Source: Fragilaria crotonensis
Lineage: Eukaryota > Bacillariophyta > Fragilariophyceae > Fragilariales > Fragilariaceae
Reading direction: 5' to 3'
NCBI GenBank assembly: GCA_022925895.1
Contig: JAKSYS010000709.1
Coordinates: 1-31,551 of the forward strand
Length of the DNA stretch: 31,551 bases
Every line of letters starts with the position of its first letter. The stretch's first letter is position 1. Positions 977-27,012 of this stretch are shown piece after piece. The notes beneath the pieces are model-generated. The model did no database searches, was not told where the DNA came from, and saw nothing but the letters and a program-made list of their open reading frames with translations. A program made the translations under genes and the position numbers.

Positions 977-2350
977 CCTACCTTCTGACCCTGACTCTGA
1001 TCCTGATGAACAACATTTTGATGACACTACACCCCTGTTGACACCGATCAACGCCGTTCAGTCACCGCCCTACCTTTGGAACTCATCTATCGACGACTTG
1101 CTTTCCGAAATTTTCCGCAACTTATGGTCGGATCCCTTCACCAAACATGGAATGACCATGTCTTGACACCTACTGTTGATCACAACTCCTGGCCTCTACG
1201 CATTTCAATCAGCCAAAAACGTGCCCGCAACAAAACTCCTCAACGCCAAGGCACTGAACCTTTCCACCGCCTTCATCTTGACCTAATGCGCAACCCTTTC
1301 CGCTATGGTCTCACAACCAATACCAACTTTTCAGCCTACTTGTTCATTGTCACAACACCTGGCAAACTAACAGGTTGGATTGGTCTCCAACTGAAAGCAC
1401 AGCTTCCATTATTACTGCTCTAAAGCAATGGCTAACTGACACAGAACTCCTTGGCCGCACCAATCTGTCCGTTTTATCCGCACTGATGCTGGATCTGCTT
1501 TCACTTCAACCAAATTCATTTCTGAATGCACTTCACTTGGTATCAAAGTTGAAGCTGCAGCACCTGAACATCAAGAAATGAACGGTATTTGCGGCCAAAT
1601 GGCGTGAAGTCCACAACACTGCCAACATCCTTCTGAACAATGCAAGACTAGGAGGTGCATTCTTCCATCATGCCCATGCCTATGCTGTTCAAATCCTCAA
1701 TGTCTGCCCAGCCAAGAATGTTATTGACCAAGATGGCAACCCAACAACTCCCTATCAATACAGTTTTCAACGCAAGCCTTCCTCGCCAACTTCCGCGTCT
1801 TCGGATGTCCAACATTCTTCAAACGCTACGAACCAACCTTCCGCAACAAACTTATAACTACAAGCAACAACTCCAACGTGCATCCCGCGGTATTTTCCTT
1901 GGATTTCCCGACAACTCTGCAGGCTGGTTAATCTACTCGCCAGACCAACCCCAAAGCCTCATCATAACCCGCGATGCCTACTTTGATGAAGACTTCAACT
2001 CCGCTCTCTGTTTCGATTCCAAACCTTTGCTGGAGCCGTACCCATCCGCTCCCACTTCAATCCGCATGGACTTCGTGACACTCAGAACTCTGAACCATCT
2101 ACCCACCATCAAACTGGCTCTGCAGCCAACCTTGGTAACCCACCATCAACCTTCATTGATACCTCCAACCATCATTCTTCCCTCCCTGCCATCCCTGAAA
2201 CTGATGACAATGCCCATGAAGATGATCCACCACCTTCTACACTTGCTGCAATCAAACATACAACTCCTCCACATGGTCCAACACCACCCACACCACATCA
2301 AATCAACTTTGTCACCCATCAACAACATCATTCCTAACTCCACAAGATGA
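977..2350 (+). pseudogene. copia 1 integrase segment, frameshifted
   Basis: Pieces of an rve-type integrase occur in three frames. The first catalytic Asp is in LHLDLMRNPF (Asp 1280-1282) and the second in IRTDAGSAF (Asp 1485-1487). The third acidic residue is expected in NGICE followed by AKWREVH near 1590, but here the Glu codon itself lacks a base and the frame breaks there. A further piece, RGIFLGFPDNSAGWLIYSPD near 1888-1945, matches the GxFxGY-like motif that follows the integrase in copia pol. The 3' part up to about 2400 is a low-complexity linker. No intact integrase can be read from this sequence. Confidence 0.82.
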
Positions 2351-2411
2351 TGACCATCTACTTCAAGAATGCAATGAAGATCTACCAACTATTGATCCCA
2401 TTCACTCTGCC

Positions 2412-3400
2412 ATGATGACAATTGACAACTCTCCCAGCAACAATCCACAAGCCAACCCCCAGGAACCTGTGGACAAATATCTTCCAGAACCTCAGTCTCT
2501 CAAAGCTGTCCTCAAACTTGATGATAATGTCCGCAATGCTTGGCTACATGCAATCAAAATGGAGATCAAGAACCTCATTGACCATGATACCTTCATCCTT
2601 GGACAAACTCCACACAAAGATGAACTCATTATCCCAGTAAAACTTGTGCTCAAAGCAAAACAAACTGCAACTGGAAAACTTGACAAACTAAAAGCTCGCC
2701 TTGTCGCCCGTGGCGACCTGGAGAAACGTCTCCTGAAAAGAGTCAAAGCCATCAACCAACAACGACTCCTTGAACAACGTCAAGAAATTGCTGAATCTAC
2801 CAATTCACCTGGCACTCCAAAACCTATACCTGTTGAACCACTCATGTATGAAGACACCTGGTCACCCTGTGCATCTGCAAGAGGGGTCAAACTCTTCATT
2901 GCAACCATCTGTGCATCCAGAAGAAGTGTCAAGAGTGCTGACTTCATTGGTGCCTACCTCCAAGCCAAAGTTATTGGCCGCCACTTTGTGAAACTGCCAT
3001 TGGAATACGCCTATCACTTCCCTGAATACGCTAAATTCTTTGGCTCTCCAATGTTACTGAACAAAGGAATCTACGGTCTCGTCTACTCTGGCAAATATTG
3101 GAACATTGAATTTTCGGAATGGCTCTACTCCCAAGGCTTTATCCAATCTCCTTCCGAACTCTTATTTTGTCCGATACGACAAACACAATCAATGGCTCCG
3201 TCTCCTATTTTTCGTCGATGATATGCTCTACGCTGGAAGCAACGATTCCATCGAAAACAATTTGAAGATTCCGTCCGCAATCGCTTCGATGTCAAATTCC
3301 TCGGACCTGCGCAATGGTTCCTCCAAATGCGTATCCACAAACACTCCGACTCAAGCTATACTCTGATCAACACCGCTACGTTTTGAATACTCCAACGTTA
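2412..3400 (+). pseudogene. copia 1 reverse transcriptase (RVT_2), frameshifted
   Basis: The segment from 2412 contains the fingers region of copia RT: NAWLHAIKMEIKNL, then a KARLVARGD motif, then SADFIGAYLQAKV carrying the catalytic Asp, then LNKGIYGLVYSGKYW. Near 3165 the frame breaks. The catalytic FVDDMLYAGS motif (Asp-Asp 3217-3222) is read in the frame starting at 3106. A second change near 3240-3250 leads to FLGPAQWFLQMRI, the equivalent of the LGxxxxFLGxxI motif of copia RTs. RT copies the element RNA into DNA in cytoplasmic particles; this copy cannot make an intact enzyme as read. Confidence 0.87.
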
Positions 3401-8965: not shown

Positions 8966-9188
8966 CAATAGCGACCAAAGGGAATTATGACCGAGGATGA
9001 CCCAAAGTTAGAAACGGCCCTAGTTTTGCACCCAGCCGAGTTGATTGTTAACCGTTGTAATGGTGGCTTCCTATACCGTATAGGAAGCCACCATTACAAC
9101 GGTTAACAGTCAACTCGGCTGGGTGCAAAACTAGGGCCGTTTCTAACTTTGGGTCATCCTCGGTCATAATTCCCTTTGGTCGCTATTG
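8966..9188. repeat. 223-bp near-perfect palindrome (foldback element or hairpin-RNA locus)
   Basis: The arms at 8966-9076 and 9078-9188 are 111 bp each, with a single spacer base (9077). Read by eye they differ at one position only (gattg versus gactg on comparison of the two arms, near 9035-9037/9117-9119). Outside CAATAG/CTATTG the symmetry stops at once. Flanks ccgatgg and gaccccatg show no convincing target duplication. A transcript would fold into a 111-bp duplex. It lies about 215 bp upstream of the gene at 9404. Confidence 0.95.
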
Positions 9189-9403: not shown

Positions 9404-10735
9404 ATGATGCACATACAACACACAACGACGCTTGCCAACAAGCGCATCTCAGTCTCTGCGCTCTGTTGTTCTTCTGACAGTGACCACAATGAAACGATGT
9501 ATGCTGTAAATCCACAAACTGGAGTTCTCGATGCGCAGATTGATTGCCGCAGCGCCCATTACAATACAACTAAGCCATACTTCGATTGGCAAATTGCTGA
9601 GACCTTCGACTCCCAATTTGAACGCAATGACGAACAAGCCTCCACTGTCTTCCAGAGTTTTGCCTCGTGTAAGAACAAGCCAGAAATTACCCAGCTGAGT
9701 TTGCAGGTTCCATCCCATGTCTGTTTCGTCAACCGCAGCATCCCGAGCGAAACCGATCATGAATGGGAACAAGAAAGAAGTCTCCCAGAATTTGCACCTC
9801 CTACGACAGATCTAGAGATCGAAACTCAGCTCACACTTGACATGGATTCTTCGCTCAAGAGGAAGCGCGAGAATTGTCTCATTGACTTCATGTTGGCAGA
9901 TTTTGACCCTCATGCGATGCGTCGTAGTTTTTACACGAGACCAACTACCTCGACAAGGGAAGAGGATCTCTGTGTCAACGGGGAATCTTGCATAGATATC
10001 AAGGCTTCGAGAGGAGAATCCCCAAACAACGCCAGCGCTGCTAGCAGAACCCTTCCACACTACAGTAATAACCCAATCTCGTCCCTCCTCGATGATGGAG
10101 AAAAGGTGTCAAGAACGGAAACCACTACCCCAGAAGCCAGCCTCTTTCACCTAATTGACAGAATCCTCGTTTCTCAGGTAGATACCGAGACAACGAACAG
10201 TTCTATTGATGAAGGTGTGCAGCACCCCGAATGCAAGTCAGCAAAAGAAGCAGGCATCACCACGCAACGCAATGATGTTGACGGATTGCTTGACCCAATT
10301 ACGTTCGAAACATTGTGCAGCAATGACTCGTACTGGTCGGAATCTTCATGTGCGAACTTCACATCTGACACTGACTCAGACAACTTTGGAGGATGGCATG
10401 ATATCTTGGAGGCTCACAACGACGGGCCATCTAAGAAAGACCAAGACACCGCTGAAGAAAGACTCAACCTAGCTATGAAGCTTTCCAGCCTAACGACATC
10501 TAGTCTCCAAGAGGACCGGGCTAATGGCCTTCCCAAGTCTCATTCTCAAACAATGGTGAACTCGTCAAGATCTCGCGAACAGCTTCAGTCAGGATTGGTG
10601 CTGCAAAAGTGGAACGGAACCCCGTTGCTTCGCCTTCCTGGGGCCAGAGTCAAGGTTAGACGCAGAATGTTTAAGGGCGAAAAGTTGTCGGTCTCTCACC
10701 TGTTTAGAGACATCGAATTGTTGACATTCGGTTGA
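9404..10735 (+). CDS. Unknown 443-aa protein, acidic/Ser-rich, probably lineage-specific
   Basis: A single long open frame with no intron. The in-frame TTG at 9398 is ignored; ATG-ATG at 9404 is the likely start. The product is hydrophilic, rich in Ser, Thr, Asp and Glu, without a membrane segment or signal peptide. It has a basic patch (SLKRKREN, about residue 150), a stretch of Ser/Asp-rich sequence (TSDTDSDNFGGWHDIL) in the second half, and a basic C-terminus (ARVKVRRRMFKGEKLSVSHL). The profile fits a largely disordered, perhaps nuclear, regulatory protein, but no family is recognised and no function is proposed. The 223-bp palindrome lies just upstream and may overlap its promoter. Confidence 0.75.
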   Translation: MMHIQHTTTLANKRISVSALCCSSDSDHNETMYAVNPQTGVLDAQIDCRSAHYNTTKPYFDWQIAETFDSQFERNDEQASTVFQSFASCKNKPEITQLSLQVPSHVCFVNRSIPSETDHEWEQERSLPEFAPPTTDLEIETQLTLDMDSSLKRKRENCLIDFMLADFDPHAMRRSFYTRPTTSTREEDLCVNGESCIDIKASRGESPNNASAASRTLPHYSNNPISSLLDDGEKVSRTETTTPEASLFHLIDRILVSQVDTETTNSSIDEGVQHPECKSAKEAGITTQRNDVDGLLDPITFETLCSNDSYWSESSCANFTSDTDSDNFGGWHDILEAHNDGPSKKDQDTAEERLNLAMKLSSLTTSSLQEDRANGLPKSHSQTMVNSSRSREQLQSGLVLQKWNGTPLLRLPGARVKVRRRMFKGEKLSVSHLFRDIELLTFG

Positions 10736-12398: not shown

Positions 12399-12400
12399 CG
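12393..12400. repeat. Left target-site duplication of the MITE
   Basis: CTTCATCG, identical to the copy at 13051-13058. On the minus strand it reads CGATGAAG and contains the ATG at 12398-12396 that opens the L15 leader. Confidence 0.85.
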
Positions 12401-13050
12401 GGGATGCCTAATGCGCTTAGAATTAATGCGCTTATAAAGCACTTGCACCAATCAAAATCTTCCAAATTTCGGGTGGGGTTGCTCTCCCGAAAGAGTCATC
12501 GACCTTTCTGAAAATATCAATAACGGTTTAATTCAGGTTTGCTACGCCAATCTTGAGTTTATATATTTTAATTTACCTTACTCGAGTGAATGAAGTTGTC
12601 ATTGGTTCGTAGTAGGACGACAGTACGTTCACGTGTGAGGGGGCTGACGACGATGGGTGAGGGTTAAACAGACGGATACACATCCAATGCATCGGCGAGT
12701 CTCTTTGCATGTGTTTTTTTGCTTTCTCTTGGTAAAAGTACAAGTACTCTGAGTGTTGCGAAGTGCGACGAAGACTTCTAAATTTGTTGATCTATTAAAG
12801 AAGTACCAGCCCTGTTTATACATACACTCAGTGGTGGTAGTTCAGATATGGCACATGTATGCATACACAGACTTCGTGTATGACATACATGTTTGATCTC
12901 GTGGTCATAAGCGCAAAGTGACCTTCATACTTAGACAAGGGGTGAAACAGAATTATTGACTTCGAAATTGCAATGATGACGTTTTGGAAGATTTTGATTG
13001 GTGCAAGTGCTTTATAAGCGCATTAATTCTAAGCGCATTAGGCACTCCCT
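12401..13050. mobile_element. MITE, 650 bp, with long TIRs and 8-9 bp target duplication
   Basis: The 61-bp stretch 12406-12466 is repeated without a mismatch, inverted, at 12983-13043. The extreme ends (ggggatgcc at the left; ggcactccct at the right) are also inverted but with small differences. CTTCATCG at 12393-12400 and 13051-13058 flanks it directly (TCTTCATCG if one base is counted outside). An 8-bp duplication fits hAT, 9 bp fits Mutator-like elements. The interior holds no transposase; 12467-12982 only has short ORFs. Each TIR includes the tandem AATGCGCTTA, a CCAAT/ATTGG box and TTATAAAG/CTTTATAA. Confidence 0.9.
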
Positions 13051-20234: not shown

Positions 20235-21650
20235 ATGTCGCAGACAATCCTTTCAACACCGCAGAACCCATCTCGATCACACACGAGGATCTCACCATTC
20301 CATTATCTATCAGCGGTACAATAATTTTCCTTGAAACTGCGACTCCGACACAATCGGAGTTGGACCATTGCCCTCACATTCACCTAACATGTGATTCAGA
20401 CTGGAATCCACAGACCGTTCGGCTGGCGTCGACCCACTCTGTGGAGGCGGAAGTGATAGCCGATGTTGAACCAGGGTTAGCGCAGATATCATCAGTGTAC
20501 TGCTCGCAGGCGTTGGCGGAAATGATGAATCAACAACGATACCTCGGATCAACGCAAGTTGATATCCCAGCAGCGCGCACGTTTATCTCTTCCAATCGAC
20601 ATCCCCAAGTGACGAGCGAGAATCTGAGTGAAAGGTGGAACATCGGGCTCCAGCAAGCAAAACAAACACTGCAGGTTACCACTCAAAAAGGGAGTCCGAT
20701 CGGCAATTATGCCCCTCAGCCGGAGATATCGTACCGACTTGATGTACCAACAACGCAAACTGAGAAATCAGAAATTTTATACTGACACACTGTTCGGGAA
20801 ATATAAATCTCTCACCAACAACACTTGCATACAGATATTCGCAAACGAATCCCAATTTGTGAAAGCGTATCCTATGGAAACGAAAGCGATGGCAGGGTCA
20901 GCGTTACGACAGTTCGTGCGGGATTACGGCGTGCCCGAAAGGTTGACATCTGACGGCGCTGCGGAACAAACAGGGCCCAAGACTGAGTTATGAAAATCGT
21001 ACGTAAGTATGACATCGATCATCATCTCAGTGAGCCTTATAGACCAAATCAGAATAGAGCGGAGTCGGTCATCCGGGAGGTGAAGCGAAGGTGGTTCAAG
21101 CATATGGTCAAGCGTAGAGTCCCAAAGCGACTGTGGGATTATGGTATTGTATGGGTGTGTGAAACGATGTCATTGACTGCGAACTCGACTTTTTCGTTAG
21201 CGGGGAGAACGCCGATGGAGCAAGTGACCGGGGAGACACCCGATATATCGGAGTATCTTGATTTTGGTTTTACGATTGGGTTTGGTACAAAGATAATGCT
21301 GGAGTCGGGAAAACAGCTTCGGTCGGTGGCTCGGTGTGTCTCACCGGGTTGGTAATCTAATGTCGTATTGGATTTTGACTAACACTGGCCGAATTGTTTC
21401 GAGAACGACTGTACAACGCGTGACCAACTTGGAACAAGGCACGGATGAAGTGAGACAGCGAATGAAGGAATTTGATGCGAACATACGTGAGTTACTGAAG
21501 GATCAGAATCACGTCTTACAAGGCGATGGCGAGCGACAACTCCAAGATTGGGAAGAATACACCGATGACGTCGATCAGGCATTCCTCGATGATTTTGACA
21601 GTGCGGTGTCGGATGAAACAATCACAGAAGCCGATCAGATTTTACCCTGA
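20198..21650 (+). pseudogene. copia 2 integrase region, frameshifted
   Basis: Pieces at 20198-20785, 20628-20993, 20990-21355 and 21336-21650 form one integrase. The zinc-binding part is reduced or unrecognised around WNIGLQQAKQTLQVTTQKG. The catalytic acids are Asp in FYTDTLF (20784-20786), Asp in LTSDGAAEQTGP (20952-20954) and Glu in NQNRAESVIREVKRRW (21062-21064). VPKRLWDYGIVW and TPDISEYLDFGF follow, and after a break near 21340 SHRVGNLMSYWILT. All three acidic residues are present, so only the frame breaks (near 20690, 20988, 21340) prevent an intact enzyme. Confidence 0.87.
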
Positions 21651-23437
21651 CATTTTTGACGACATGTATCTCAATAAAGAGATTGCGCTACCGCGAGGAG
21701 TTGGCGATGGTGAGGATGTTCATTATGGTAAAGTGACTAAACGATTGCGAGATGCAGAAGGGAGACCGATTGGAACGGCGAACGAGCATCCGTTGTTAGA
21801 CACCAGGGAGTATGAAGTAGAGTTTATGGATGGACACACCGAGGCGATTGCTGCGAATTTAATTGCTCAACACTTGTACTCACAGATTGACGACGAAGGA
21901 AACAGACACATGCTTTTAGATGATATAGTTGACCACAGAAAAGGCGTCCAAGCAATTGACAAAGAGGATGCGTTTGTGACCATGAGTAATGGCGTAAAGC
22001 GACGCAAGCAAACGACTCAGGGTTGGCAGTTATTATGTCAGTGGAAAGACGGCAGCACGAATTGGGTGAAGTTAAAAGATATGAAACAATCATACCCCGT
22101 GCAGGTCGCCGAGTACGCCATCGCAAATCGCATCGACGATGAGCCCGCTTTTGCATGGTGGGTCTCGCACGTGATAAAGAAGAGGTTGCGAGTGATCGCA
22201 AAGTTGAAATCTAAGTATTGGCAGCGCACTCACAAGTTTGGAATCAGGATACCAAAGACTGTCGAACAAGCCTTAGCGTTTGACAGAGAGAACGGCGACA
22301 CGAAATGGTGGGATGCGATATGTAAAGAAATGAAAAACGTGAGACCGGCGTGTGAAAAATGGGAACGGAAGGAAAGCGAACTACCACCTGGATTCCAGAA
22401 GATCAAATGTCATTTTATATTCGATATCAAGATGGCTGAAAACTTCAGACGTAAAGCGAGGCTCGTAGCGAATGGAAATGAAACAGATGCTCCTGCAACA
22501 TTAACGTATTCCTCGGTGGTGTCGAGGGACTCAGTGAGGATCGCATTGCTTATTGCAGCGTTGAATGAGCTTGAAGTGCTTGCATGTGACATACAAAATG
22601 CTTATCTAACCGCTGATTGCAGGGGAAAAGATTTACTTTATCGCAGGACCAGAGTTTGGATCAGAACAGGGGTCAATTATGATTATCCGAAAGGCTCTCT
22701 ACGGACTGAAGTCAAGTGGCGCAGCTTTTCGAGCGCACTTAGCGGAAACCCTGTATGATATCGGGTACAAGCCAACACGCGCTGATCCTGATGTGTGGAT
22801 TCGACCGGCAACCAAAGTGAGCGGGTTTGAATATTACGAGATGGTCTTAGTATATGTCGACGACATCTTGTGCATATCGGCGGACCCGAAAGCAACTATG
22901 CACGGGATACAAGGGACATTCAAGTTGAAGGATGATAAAATAGAGAAACCCGAGACGTATCTTGGGGCGCAGTTAAAAGAAATGAACATTGGAGGACGAA
23001 TGTGTTGGACGATGAATTGCGAACAATATGTGAAGTCAGCGATTGCGAACGTTGAGGCCAAACTAAATGAATCAGGACAGCGATTACCATCTAAGTGTCT
23101 AACCCCATTGCAATCAAACTACAGGCCGGAGCTTGACACGTCAGCAGAGCTGAAGATCGACGGCGTCAGATATTACCAAGAGTTGATTGGAGTGTTGCGT
23201 TGGGCAATAGAGTTGGGGCGAATTGACATGGCAACTGAGGTATCAATGTTGTCCACTCACCTTGCGTTGCCTCGCGAAGGACATCTTCAACAGGTTTATC
23301 ACATATTTGGATACCTGAAGGCAAGGCCGAAACGGACGATTGCGTTTGATCCTTCGCACCCAGATATTGACGAATCCAGGTTTGTCCAGTGTGATTGGCA
23401 TGATTTTTACCGAGGAGCTGCAGAATTAATTCCAGGG
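21650..23437 (+). pseudogene. copia 2 reverse transcriptase with upstream chromo-like region, frameshifted
   Basis: The frame from 21526 carries a region resembling chromo-type modules (EVEFMDGHTEAIAANLIAQH, later WQLLCQWKDGSTNWVKL) ahead of the RT. RT motifs are WWDAICKEMKNV, KARLVANGNETDAPATLTYS and CDIQNAYLTA with a catalytic Asp. Near 22625 the frame changes, continuing as IIRKALYGLKSSGAAFRAHL and LVYVDDILC with the catalytic pair at 22859-22864. YYQELIGVLRWAIELGRIDM is the C-terminal connection. Chromo-like modules can target integration to certain chromatin; here that is only a suggestion from sequence style. Confidence 0.88.
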
Positions 23438-23439
23438 AC

Positions 23440-23926
23440 ATGCCCGAAGCCAGAGGTAACGTTGTATCTACTCACTGTTTTGTCGATGCCGATCATGCAG
23501 GAAATAAGGTAACGAGACGATCGCAATCGGGCATCCTATTGTTTGTGAACCGAGCGGTAATACTATGGTACAGTAAGCGGCAGAATACTGTCGAAACATC
23601 AACGTTTGGCAGTGAATTCGTGGCTATGAGAATCGCAGTGGACTGATCGAGGCGTTGAGGTACAAGTTAAGAATGTTTGGGGTTCCTATTGAAGGCCCTA
23701 CGAATGTTTTTGTGACAATGAAGCGGTGACGAAGAATTCGATATATCCGGAATCAACGTTGACGAAGAAACACAACGCAATCGCGTATCATCGTACGCGA
23801 GAAGCTGTTGCAGCCGGGACTATACGAGTGACTAAGGAAGATGGAAAGACCAATCTGGCGGATTTATTGACCAAACCTTTACCCCAAGTTACAAGAGATA
23901 CACTGTGCGACAAGTTTATGTATTGA
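23440..23926 (+). pseudogene. copia 2 RNase H and pol C-terminus
   Basis: CFVDADHAGNKVTRRSQSGI (first catalytic Asp 23485-23487), ILWYSKRQNTVETSTFGSEF with the Glu, then after two one-base breaks near 23644 and 23710, DNEAVTKNSIYPESTL and ADLLTKPLPQVTRDTL. The final frame ends at TGA 23924-23926. This is the typical closing part of this copia lineage. Bases 23927-24087 form the untranslated stretch before the 3' LTR. Confidence 0.88.
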
Positions 23927-24786: not shown

Positions 24787-26083
24787 ATGATGTTCATCGC
24801 ACGCGTTGCTCTCAGGAAGAGTCGCCAATATACCTGTCTTCTCACCAACAGGCTTACTGTTCTTGTGGGTGACCAGCGATGCATCCCTGTGGTGCATTTC
24901 GCCCGTCCGCCATCTGCCTTTTTTTCTACTCAGGTTTCTGCTGTTGATGCAAAAACTCCACCGATCACTAGCTTAGAAATGTCCATTGTGCGCCAAATCA
25001 AGGCCGAGCTGATGAGTGTCGACGCCAACTCCGATGGTCGTTTGGACGCAGACGAACTGAAGGCGCTGCTCCGCAAACACAGTTCTGCCTTTACTGACGA
25101 AGAGATATTGGAAATATCGGATTTGTACTACGCCGGAAAAGCCGGCGGCTCCGTCACTTTCGACCGCTTTCTCGCCGCCGTCGATCTCGTTCTCCAGAAA
25201 GAGGCCGATCCAAGCTCGAAACAAGATACGAGTAGTCACAATCATTTCAAGGAATCCTCCCGTCATCCTCTCGGCGTTGGACGAGATGGATTAGAGTTTA
25301 TGCATGCCGGCAAGTCTCACGGATACTACACAGCCGATGAGCTCGACGTCAAATTGACTCATCTCGAACCCAAGGGAGTGCTGGATCGCCTGGCCTTGAA
25401 CGCAACCAAGGCTATCAAGGTGCTCTTCGACACTGCTACAGGATGGAAGCACGAACACATTACTGTTAGTAACATTATGAACCGTGTCATCTACCTCGAA
25501 ACAATTGCTGCTGTTCCCGGCATGGTGGCGGCGATTGTTCGTCACTTCAGGAGTCTCCGGACCATGCAGCCCGATGGAGGTATGCTGCAAATGTTTCTGG
25601 AGGAGGCCAACAATGAGCGGATGCACTTGCTCACCTTTGTCCGCATGAAGGACCCAAACTTGTTCTTTCGCCTCATGGTTCTGGTGGGGCAGGTTGGATT
25701 TGGAAGTATCTTTTCTTTGGCGTACATGATCTCACCAAAGTTTTGTCACCGCTTTGTTGGCTATGTGGAAGAGAAGCCTGTTCTACGTATACCAAGATCA
25801 TCCACGCCATTGAGGAGGCACCTGACGGCACCGAACTAGCAGCCTGGCGTACGGAGACTGCTCCATCTTTGGCCATTGCATACTGGAAGTTGGGGGAGAA
25901 GGGAACCGTCTTGATTTGATGTATGCCGTGCGTGCGGACGAGGCAGAGCATCGCGATGTCAATCATCTTTTCTGTGGACTCAAACGAGGACAATGCAACC
26001 CTCTCTACGACCCAGAGAGCAAATTGGATGAAATGCTCCTCAAGTATGTCAAGGATATCATGACGCGTCCGCTCACCAACTAG
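24787..26083 (+). CDS. AOX: Alternative oxidase with N-terminal EF-hand, mitochondrial
   Basis: Alternative oxidase takes electrons from ubiquinol to oxygen, bypassing complexes III and IV at the mitochondrial inner membrane. The N-terminus (about 50 aa: basic, few acids, FARPPSAFFSTQ) looks like a mitochondrial presequence. Residues 79-90, DANSDGRLDADE, form a canonical EF-hand calcium loop; a second, degenerate EF-like unit follows at about 113-130. The oxidase domain begins near 180 and has the di-iron ligands in LET (Glu 238), ANNERMHL (Glu 277, His 280), EEEA after HRFVGY, and RADEAEHRDVNH. Single G losses near 25774 (EEEA) and 25914 (before DLMYAV) break the frame; the C-terminus is read to TAG 26081-26083. 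Calcium control is inferred from the EF-hand. Confidence 0.93.
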
Positions 26084-26349: not shown

Positions 26350-27003
26350 TTAAAATTTGAATTTCACGCGAGGGTCCTTGTCAATATTCTCATAGAGTAG
26401 ATATAGCATTTCGGCATTCTCAACCGGCGCATGGACCGTCACGCTGGTCCATTTTCCCATTTCCCGTGTTGAGAAGGAAACCGTCTCCTTCTCGACATGA
26501 CACGAGTCTGCCACAATTTGCAAGACATCTTGTACAAAGGTACCCTCATTGGCACCAACGATTTTCATGGTAAACTGGCACGGATACTCGACGAGGGCTT
26601 CAAAAACTCGACTTTTCTCTCCAGTCTTTTCGTTTGTGTAGACGGTGTATCCATCCTTATCGTATTCTGGTTTGGTAACATCGTTAATGGGCTTGTCGGG
26701 TGTGCCTAGTGCCACATATGGCTTGATGATGGGTACTGATCCCATTCCCGTCGTGGTCGTCTGTCCCACAATTGTCGCACTAAGGCGCATATCAAAGTCA
26801 GGCGAGAGCGGCGTCTTGGGTTCTTCTTCCATGTCGTCGTCGTCATCATCGTCGTCGTCCTTATCGGGAACTTGATTGAAAAAGGAACCAGCCGGACCTT
26901 CCGTCATGGAGAGGCGAAGCAATGAGACAATCGGACGATGTGTGGGTGAAAATGCCACGGAGCTCACGGTCAGTGTTGCAGCCAGAATCAGGTACTTCTT
27001 CAT
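26350..27003 (-). CDS. DUF493 (YbeD-like) protein, plastid-targeted
   Basis: ATG 27003 gives MKKYLILAATLTVSSVAFSP, a signal peptide with an ASAF-like site (VAF, Phe at +1). This is the bipartite signal that sends proteins into the complex plastid of diatoms. An in-frame ATG at 27012 would add three residues. A run of nine Asp follows in the linker (about residues 52-60 counted from the upstream Met). The last 85 residues are the DUF493 fold (FEALVEYPCQFTMKIVGANE, then SVTVHAPVENAEMLYLLYEN, then DPRVKFKF). DUF493 is a small ACT-like fold; its bacterial member YbeD has no settled reaction. The gene is convergent with the alternative oxidase, 266 bp between stops. It is intact, without introns. 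Confidence 0.9.
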   Translation of the reverse strand: MKKYLILAATLTVSSVAFSPTHRPIVSLLRLSMTEGPAGSFFNQVPDKDDDDDDDDDMEEEPKTPLSPDFDMRLSATIVGQTTTTGMGSVPIIKPYVALGTPDKPINDVTKPEYDKDGYTVYTNEKTGEKSRVFEALVEYPCQFTMKIVGANEGTFVQDVLQIVADSCHVEKETVSFSTREMGKWTSVTVHAPVENAEMLYLLYENIDKDPRVKFKF

Positions 27004-27012
27004 TGAGGGCAT

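Follow-up and report, generated by a model that had tools for sequence, protein, structure and literature searches.

A 223-bp palindrome in Fragilaria crotonensis is probably a MITE of a transposon family with 1-bp target duplications

The window analysed here is a stretch of 31,551 nucleotides from Fragilaria crotonensis (contig JAKSYS010000709.1, C679 below). At positions 8966-9188 it contains a near-perfect palindrome of 223 bp. Our inverted repeat search re-detected exactly the structure described in a sequence-only reading of this DNA: a left arm of 111 nt (8966-9076, forward strand) and an equally long right arm (9078-9188, reverse strand), separated by the single base C9077 and differing at one position. 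The sole mismatch is T9045, where the other arm predicts C. Folded as single-stranded DNA, the palindrome reached -142.6 kcal/mol versus a mean of -24.8 (sd 3.35) for dinucleotide-preserving shuffles, and none of 200 shuffles folded as well.

The window also holds other features. An open frame of 443 aa at 9404-10735 had no Pfam match at E 0.01. Its counterpart in C323, a collinear contig, is in three pieces, one with an internal stop, and C819 carries a partial relative (55% identical over 71 aa). At 12400-13049 lies a MITE-like element with 67-nt inverted ends that are 97% alike and 516 nt apart. It is flanked by an apparent 8-bp direct repeat, TCTTCATC, and we take it to be hAT-like. Pieces of Copia-type retrotransposons (RVT_2, SH3_retrovirus) were found at 1655-3221 and 21526-23512. 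The segments 24787-25839 and 26350-27012 encode an alternative oxidase (Pfam AOX, 1.4e-54), preceded by weak EF-hand matches, and a DUF493 protein on the opposite strand.

We searched the 62.1-Mb assembly (881 contigs) with the palindrome. C323 aligns collinearly with the window over 4,231 bases at 99.1% identity, with 6 mismatches and 32 gap positions. Its palindrome occupies the corresponding position, in a 219-bp copy with small deletions. C323 therefore most likely represents the other haplotype, or else a duplicate. The query gave at least 76 matching pieces in at least 33 candidate places, with near whole-length matches on both strands at 15 places. Counting same-site pairs (window/C323 and C336/C548) once leaves the window and 12 other sites, among which the C174 copy has a degenerate left end. 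Copies in C391 and C183 are 99-100% identical to that of the window, and the others 81-92%. The equivalent of position 9045 is C in the C323, C391 and C183 copies, so T9045 is private to the window contig. Self-complementarity ranges from 99.6% down to 84%; in C174 only a 95-bp self-complementary stretch was detected.

Near-perfect palindromes are a known form of artefact, and the sequence-only reading had allowed for an assembly or foldback artefact here. However, the same structure recurs in C323 and at 12 further sites whose flanks differ, both arms carrying lineage-specific sequence, and we give an assembly or library artefact almost no credence. The foldback MITE also proposed there fares better, with near-complete copies in other surroundings. 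The recent origin that it named as one option agrees with the near-identical C391 and C183 copies. Six independent loci keep both ends with the centre shortened (105-170 bp), as expected of unstable palindromes and in line with the fast decay that the sequence-only reading ascribed to such structures.

The palindrome starts with CAATAGCGACCAA (8966-8978, forward strand) and closes with TTGGTCGCTATTG (9176-9188, reverse strand). In a whole-genome pattern search the 13-mer CAATAGCGACCAA occurred 66 times, versus 2 for its reversed control. At 23 independent loci with both ends we compared the flanking bases. At 19 of them, the left end is preceded by the same base that follows the right end (P about 4e-8 at a chance rate of 0.27), whereas other offset pairs match at 2-10 of 23. 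Loci in C76, C690 and C716 are likewise matched (3/3), for a total of 22/26; C183, C109, C387 and C33 are the four without a match. The target base may be any of the four, and no 2-bp duplication was seen among the tabulated copies. In the window, the rule assigns G8965 and G9189 as the two copies of a 1-bp target-site duplication. In the MITEs of C183 (L010) and C387 (L022), both outermost bases are swapped symmetrically (C to G, G to C), for which we have no explanation.

Empty sites elsewhere support the same assignment. We queried the joined flanks of 19 loci and aligned counterparts for six. Three gave clean empty sites with the base present once: C221 (in C751), C72 (in C722 and C32) and C391 (in C310, where a 10-base gap lies close by). 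The C72 insertion sits in another repeat family, where 26 places span the junction and two (C722 and C32) were aligned. A counterpart of C153 is compatible with an empty site but has a 6-base gap beside the junction, and those of C94 and of the 2,897-bp C38 element differ at the junction. The search gave no empty site for the locus in the window; C323 carries the insertion there. The palindrome is thus short (223 bp), non-coding and bounded by terminal inverted repeats (its 111-nt arms), and its dispersed copies carry a target-site duplication. Dispersal, defined ends, duplication and empty sites all speak for the MITE of the sequence-only reading.

The MITE ends (CAATAGCGACC) are common to much longer elements, and the 13-bp ends also occur on coding ones. 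A genome pattern search found end pairs of the same type 1.9-8 kb apart. These long elements include one in C94 (7,979 bp), one in C346 (5,625 bp), two in C38 (2,897 bp at 80,020, C38a; 5,369 bp at 96.5 kb, C38b) and one in C877 (1,893 bp, at the same site as in C548 and C386); part of each of the elements in C690 and C716 was also read. The larger elements encode two convergent proteins; in C38b both frames are open, A with 1,127 aa and B with 490 aa, counted from stop to stop. The convergent arrangement held in all five long elements in which both frames were inspected (L040, L041, L050, L053 and L054). Protein A had 75 matching pieces in the genome, several within open frames of more than 1,000 aa.

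Neither protein has a credible match in the libraries searched, in which remote relatives may be missed. The best Pfam hit for A was a coiled-coil model below its cut-off (E 0.0061) and that for B had E 0.038; neither is credible. No Pfam transposase model matched A at E up to 5 (three full frames) or up to 1 (others). NCBIfam gave nothing credible for either protein, and PDB no match. A scan with short peptide patterns, which remote relatives could escape, confirmed no relatives of A in viral contigs, prokaryote genomes or phage records. An alignment of five A sequences revealed the invariant residues D576, D673 and E1050, together with C694, C697, C716, C727 and H729. We guess that D576, D673 and E1050 could be a catalytic trio, and infer that A may be a DDE-type transposase. 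Proteins A and B of the long elements, which have the same ends as the MITE, would most likely mobilise it in trans.

The C94 element also contains an open frame with a GCR1_C domain (L040, 662-2413; Pfam, 9.5e-7). We considered this tyrosine recombinase as the transposase and rejected it. It lies within about 2.6 kb of C94 that are absent from the 2,897-bp element, and it is not among the long frames of the C346 and 5.4-kb C38 elements. For these reasons the frame is probably a nested insertion, presumably Crypton-like.

A second lineage of related elements was found in C120 and C273, with A frames of 1,162 and 1,157 aa. Protein A of C120 is 34% identical to that of C38b over 691 aa. The convergent B of C120 is 26% identical over 411 aa, and in C273 B is split over two frames. 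The ends of this lineage, CACTAGAGACC, have 9 of 11 letters in common with CAATAGCGACC, and its 14-mer end occurs 69 times in the genome versus 0 for the control. A 1-bp match was present in 19/25 pairings, two of which are alternatives for one nested pair in C613, and in 18/23 when the nested C613 pairing is kept. The mismatches are in C416, C461, C489, C764 and the inner C613 element. The 1-bp duplication is therefore not private to the lineage of the MITE. Six of seven short elements of the second lineage contain an inverted repeat internally in addition to their ends, and in one case its arms lie 355 bases apart; the internal inverted repeat of C120 is weak (E 0.51).

CACTA elements begin with CACTA and end with TAGTG, and Harbinger elements have a two-gene layout. 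The second lineage starts with CACTA(G) and finishes with (C)TAGTG, and is CACTA-like in this respect (CACTAG at its termini, CAATAG in the window's lineage). Its multi-kb size and terminal inverted repeats add to the likeness to CACTA/EnSpm (CMC), and the gene pair resembles the Harbinger layout. The parent family could then belong to a known superfamily (CMC or PHIS/Harbinger), its transposase being beyond the reach of Pfam and its 1-bp duplication a local variant. We take this possibility seriously, while placing it short of even odds. The duplication argues against CMC, for which an account in PMC4482050 gives 2-4 bp. A remote relation to CMC could exist all the same, although the A frames lack a Pfam transposase match, since such libraries can miss remote relatives. 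PHIS elements (PIF/Harbinger, ISL2EU, Spy, Pangu, Nuwa) are described in PMC10045372 as having no TSD or TSDs of 1-4 bp, and some of them carry two genes according to the description in PMC4482050. However, the target base here is any of the four and not a fixed TWA, AT, ANT or CWG. Searches of Pfam and NCBIfam revealed no DDE_Tnp_4-type transposase and no Myb/SANT partner of the PHIS/Harbinger kind.

All seven independent long elements examined in the first lineage have an imperfect palindrome that starts some 100-115 bases inside the left end, ahead of the A frame. It matches the core of the MITE, a 107-bp palindrome at 9024-9130. Five elements have a span of 107 bp, C94 one of 111 bp and C877, with its internal duplication, one of 152 bp. 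Over 52 nt, the arms are 71-100% identical. The C716 and C877 palindromes are near-perfect; in C94, C346, C38a, C38b and C690 the arms are 71-83% alike, no closer than between elements, so homogenisation of the arms is not general.

We aligned the palindromes of six elements (C877 left out), and 91% of cells pair. In 19 of 48 pairs both partners had changed and still paired, compared with a shuffle mean of 8.8 (0/500 as high) and 3-7 pairs when the partner was slid; the signal is strong but gives no probability, because this alignment also supplied the structure and the shuffle takes no account of relatedness. These double-sided changes indicate that either the arms serve to correct one another or pairing is under selection. 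Near-perfect symmetry is found in MITEs of differing sequence. In the C387 MITE the two arms match each other throughout 52 nt, and so do the two arms of the C22 MITE, although one type differs from the other by 22%. To the eye, MITEs of the C387 type have an inner sequence similar to the C38b palindrome. In 7 of 10 comparisons the outer MITE arm scored higher against the palindrome-bearing end than against the other end, and in one its score exceeded that of all 200 shuffles. This weakly suggests that the outer arm derives from that end.

Symmetric change in both arms is an effect attributed to template switching on stems in PMC8794818. The multi-base compensatory changes seen here in both stem arms are like those of that account, which concerns RNA genes, unlike the transposon stem considered here. 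Template switching during replication, with one arm copied from the other, might keep the arms alike and could have produced the perfect symmetry of the MITE. Selection for pairing might do so too, for example if the transposase required the palindrome as a binding site or hairpin for movement, and both processes might act together.

Covarying pairs in relatives would also be expected of an RNA stem. The locus might accordingly be a hairpin-RNA gene, whose long duplex RNA would be processed to small RNAs that might silence the parent transposons or the downstream gene. Its near-perfect 111-bp stem lies close upstream of the open frame at 9404, and microRNA genes derived from MITEs have been reported, as noted in PMC1784062 and PMC3086885. 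However, transposon ends, dispersal and target duplication suffice without a role in RNA, the palindromic shape follows from the parent element, and the window had no Rfam match. We consider a hairpin-RNA gene improbable, although a secondary role of this kind may exist.

We interpret the palindrome as a non-autonomous MITE of the cut-and-paste type that most likely depends on the long elements' proteins A and B for movement in trans, that duplicates 1 bp of its target and whose core comes from the palindrome of those elements (probability about 0.88). It would have lost all genes and would be built from one transposon end present twice, in inverted orientation, around a palindromic centre, its core corresponding to the internal palindrome that the long elements have between the left end and the protein A frame. 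Palindromic or foldback MITEs are known from the Angel elements of fish and the palindromic repeats of nematodes. Like them, the element is short, non-coding, dispersed and almost wholly inverted repeat, with a target duplication. It differs in that the duplication is of 1 bp and that the core appears to be inherited from an internal palindrome of the parents.

The MITE itself is of a known kind, and its parent family may be an undescribed superfamily. Literature searches gave no transposon match for the terminal sequences and nothing relevant on 1-bp target duplications. In the literature on diatom transposons and on superfamilies, which did not extend to Repbase, nothing was recognised as the parent family. 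Tentatively, and with the odds somewhat against it, the MITE could belong to a new superfamily of eukaryotic DNA transposons. Such a superfamily would have two convergent uncharacterised proteins, a 1-bp duplication fixed across lineages with A proteins 34% identical, and a subterminal palindrome belonging to the transposition machinery, with one arm renewed as a copy of the other. The CACTA-like ends of the second lineage and the 1-bp duplications among the lengths described for PHIS in PMC10045372 call for caution.

The status of the parent family as a superfamily turns on the fold of protein A. How long a target duplication is depends on how the transposase is arranged on the target DNA. 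Two diverged lineages, with proteins outside the searched libraries, have kept the duplication at 1 bp, which suggests an unusual integration complex. A long palindrome that is repeatedly renewed inside a transposon would offer a natural test of template switching versus selection for arm likeness, and it gives a concrete idea of how fully palindromic MITEs may arise.
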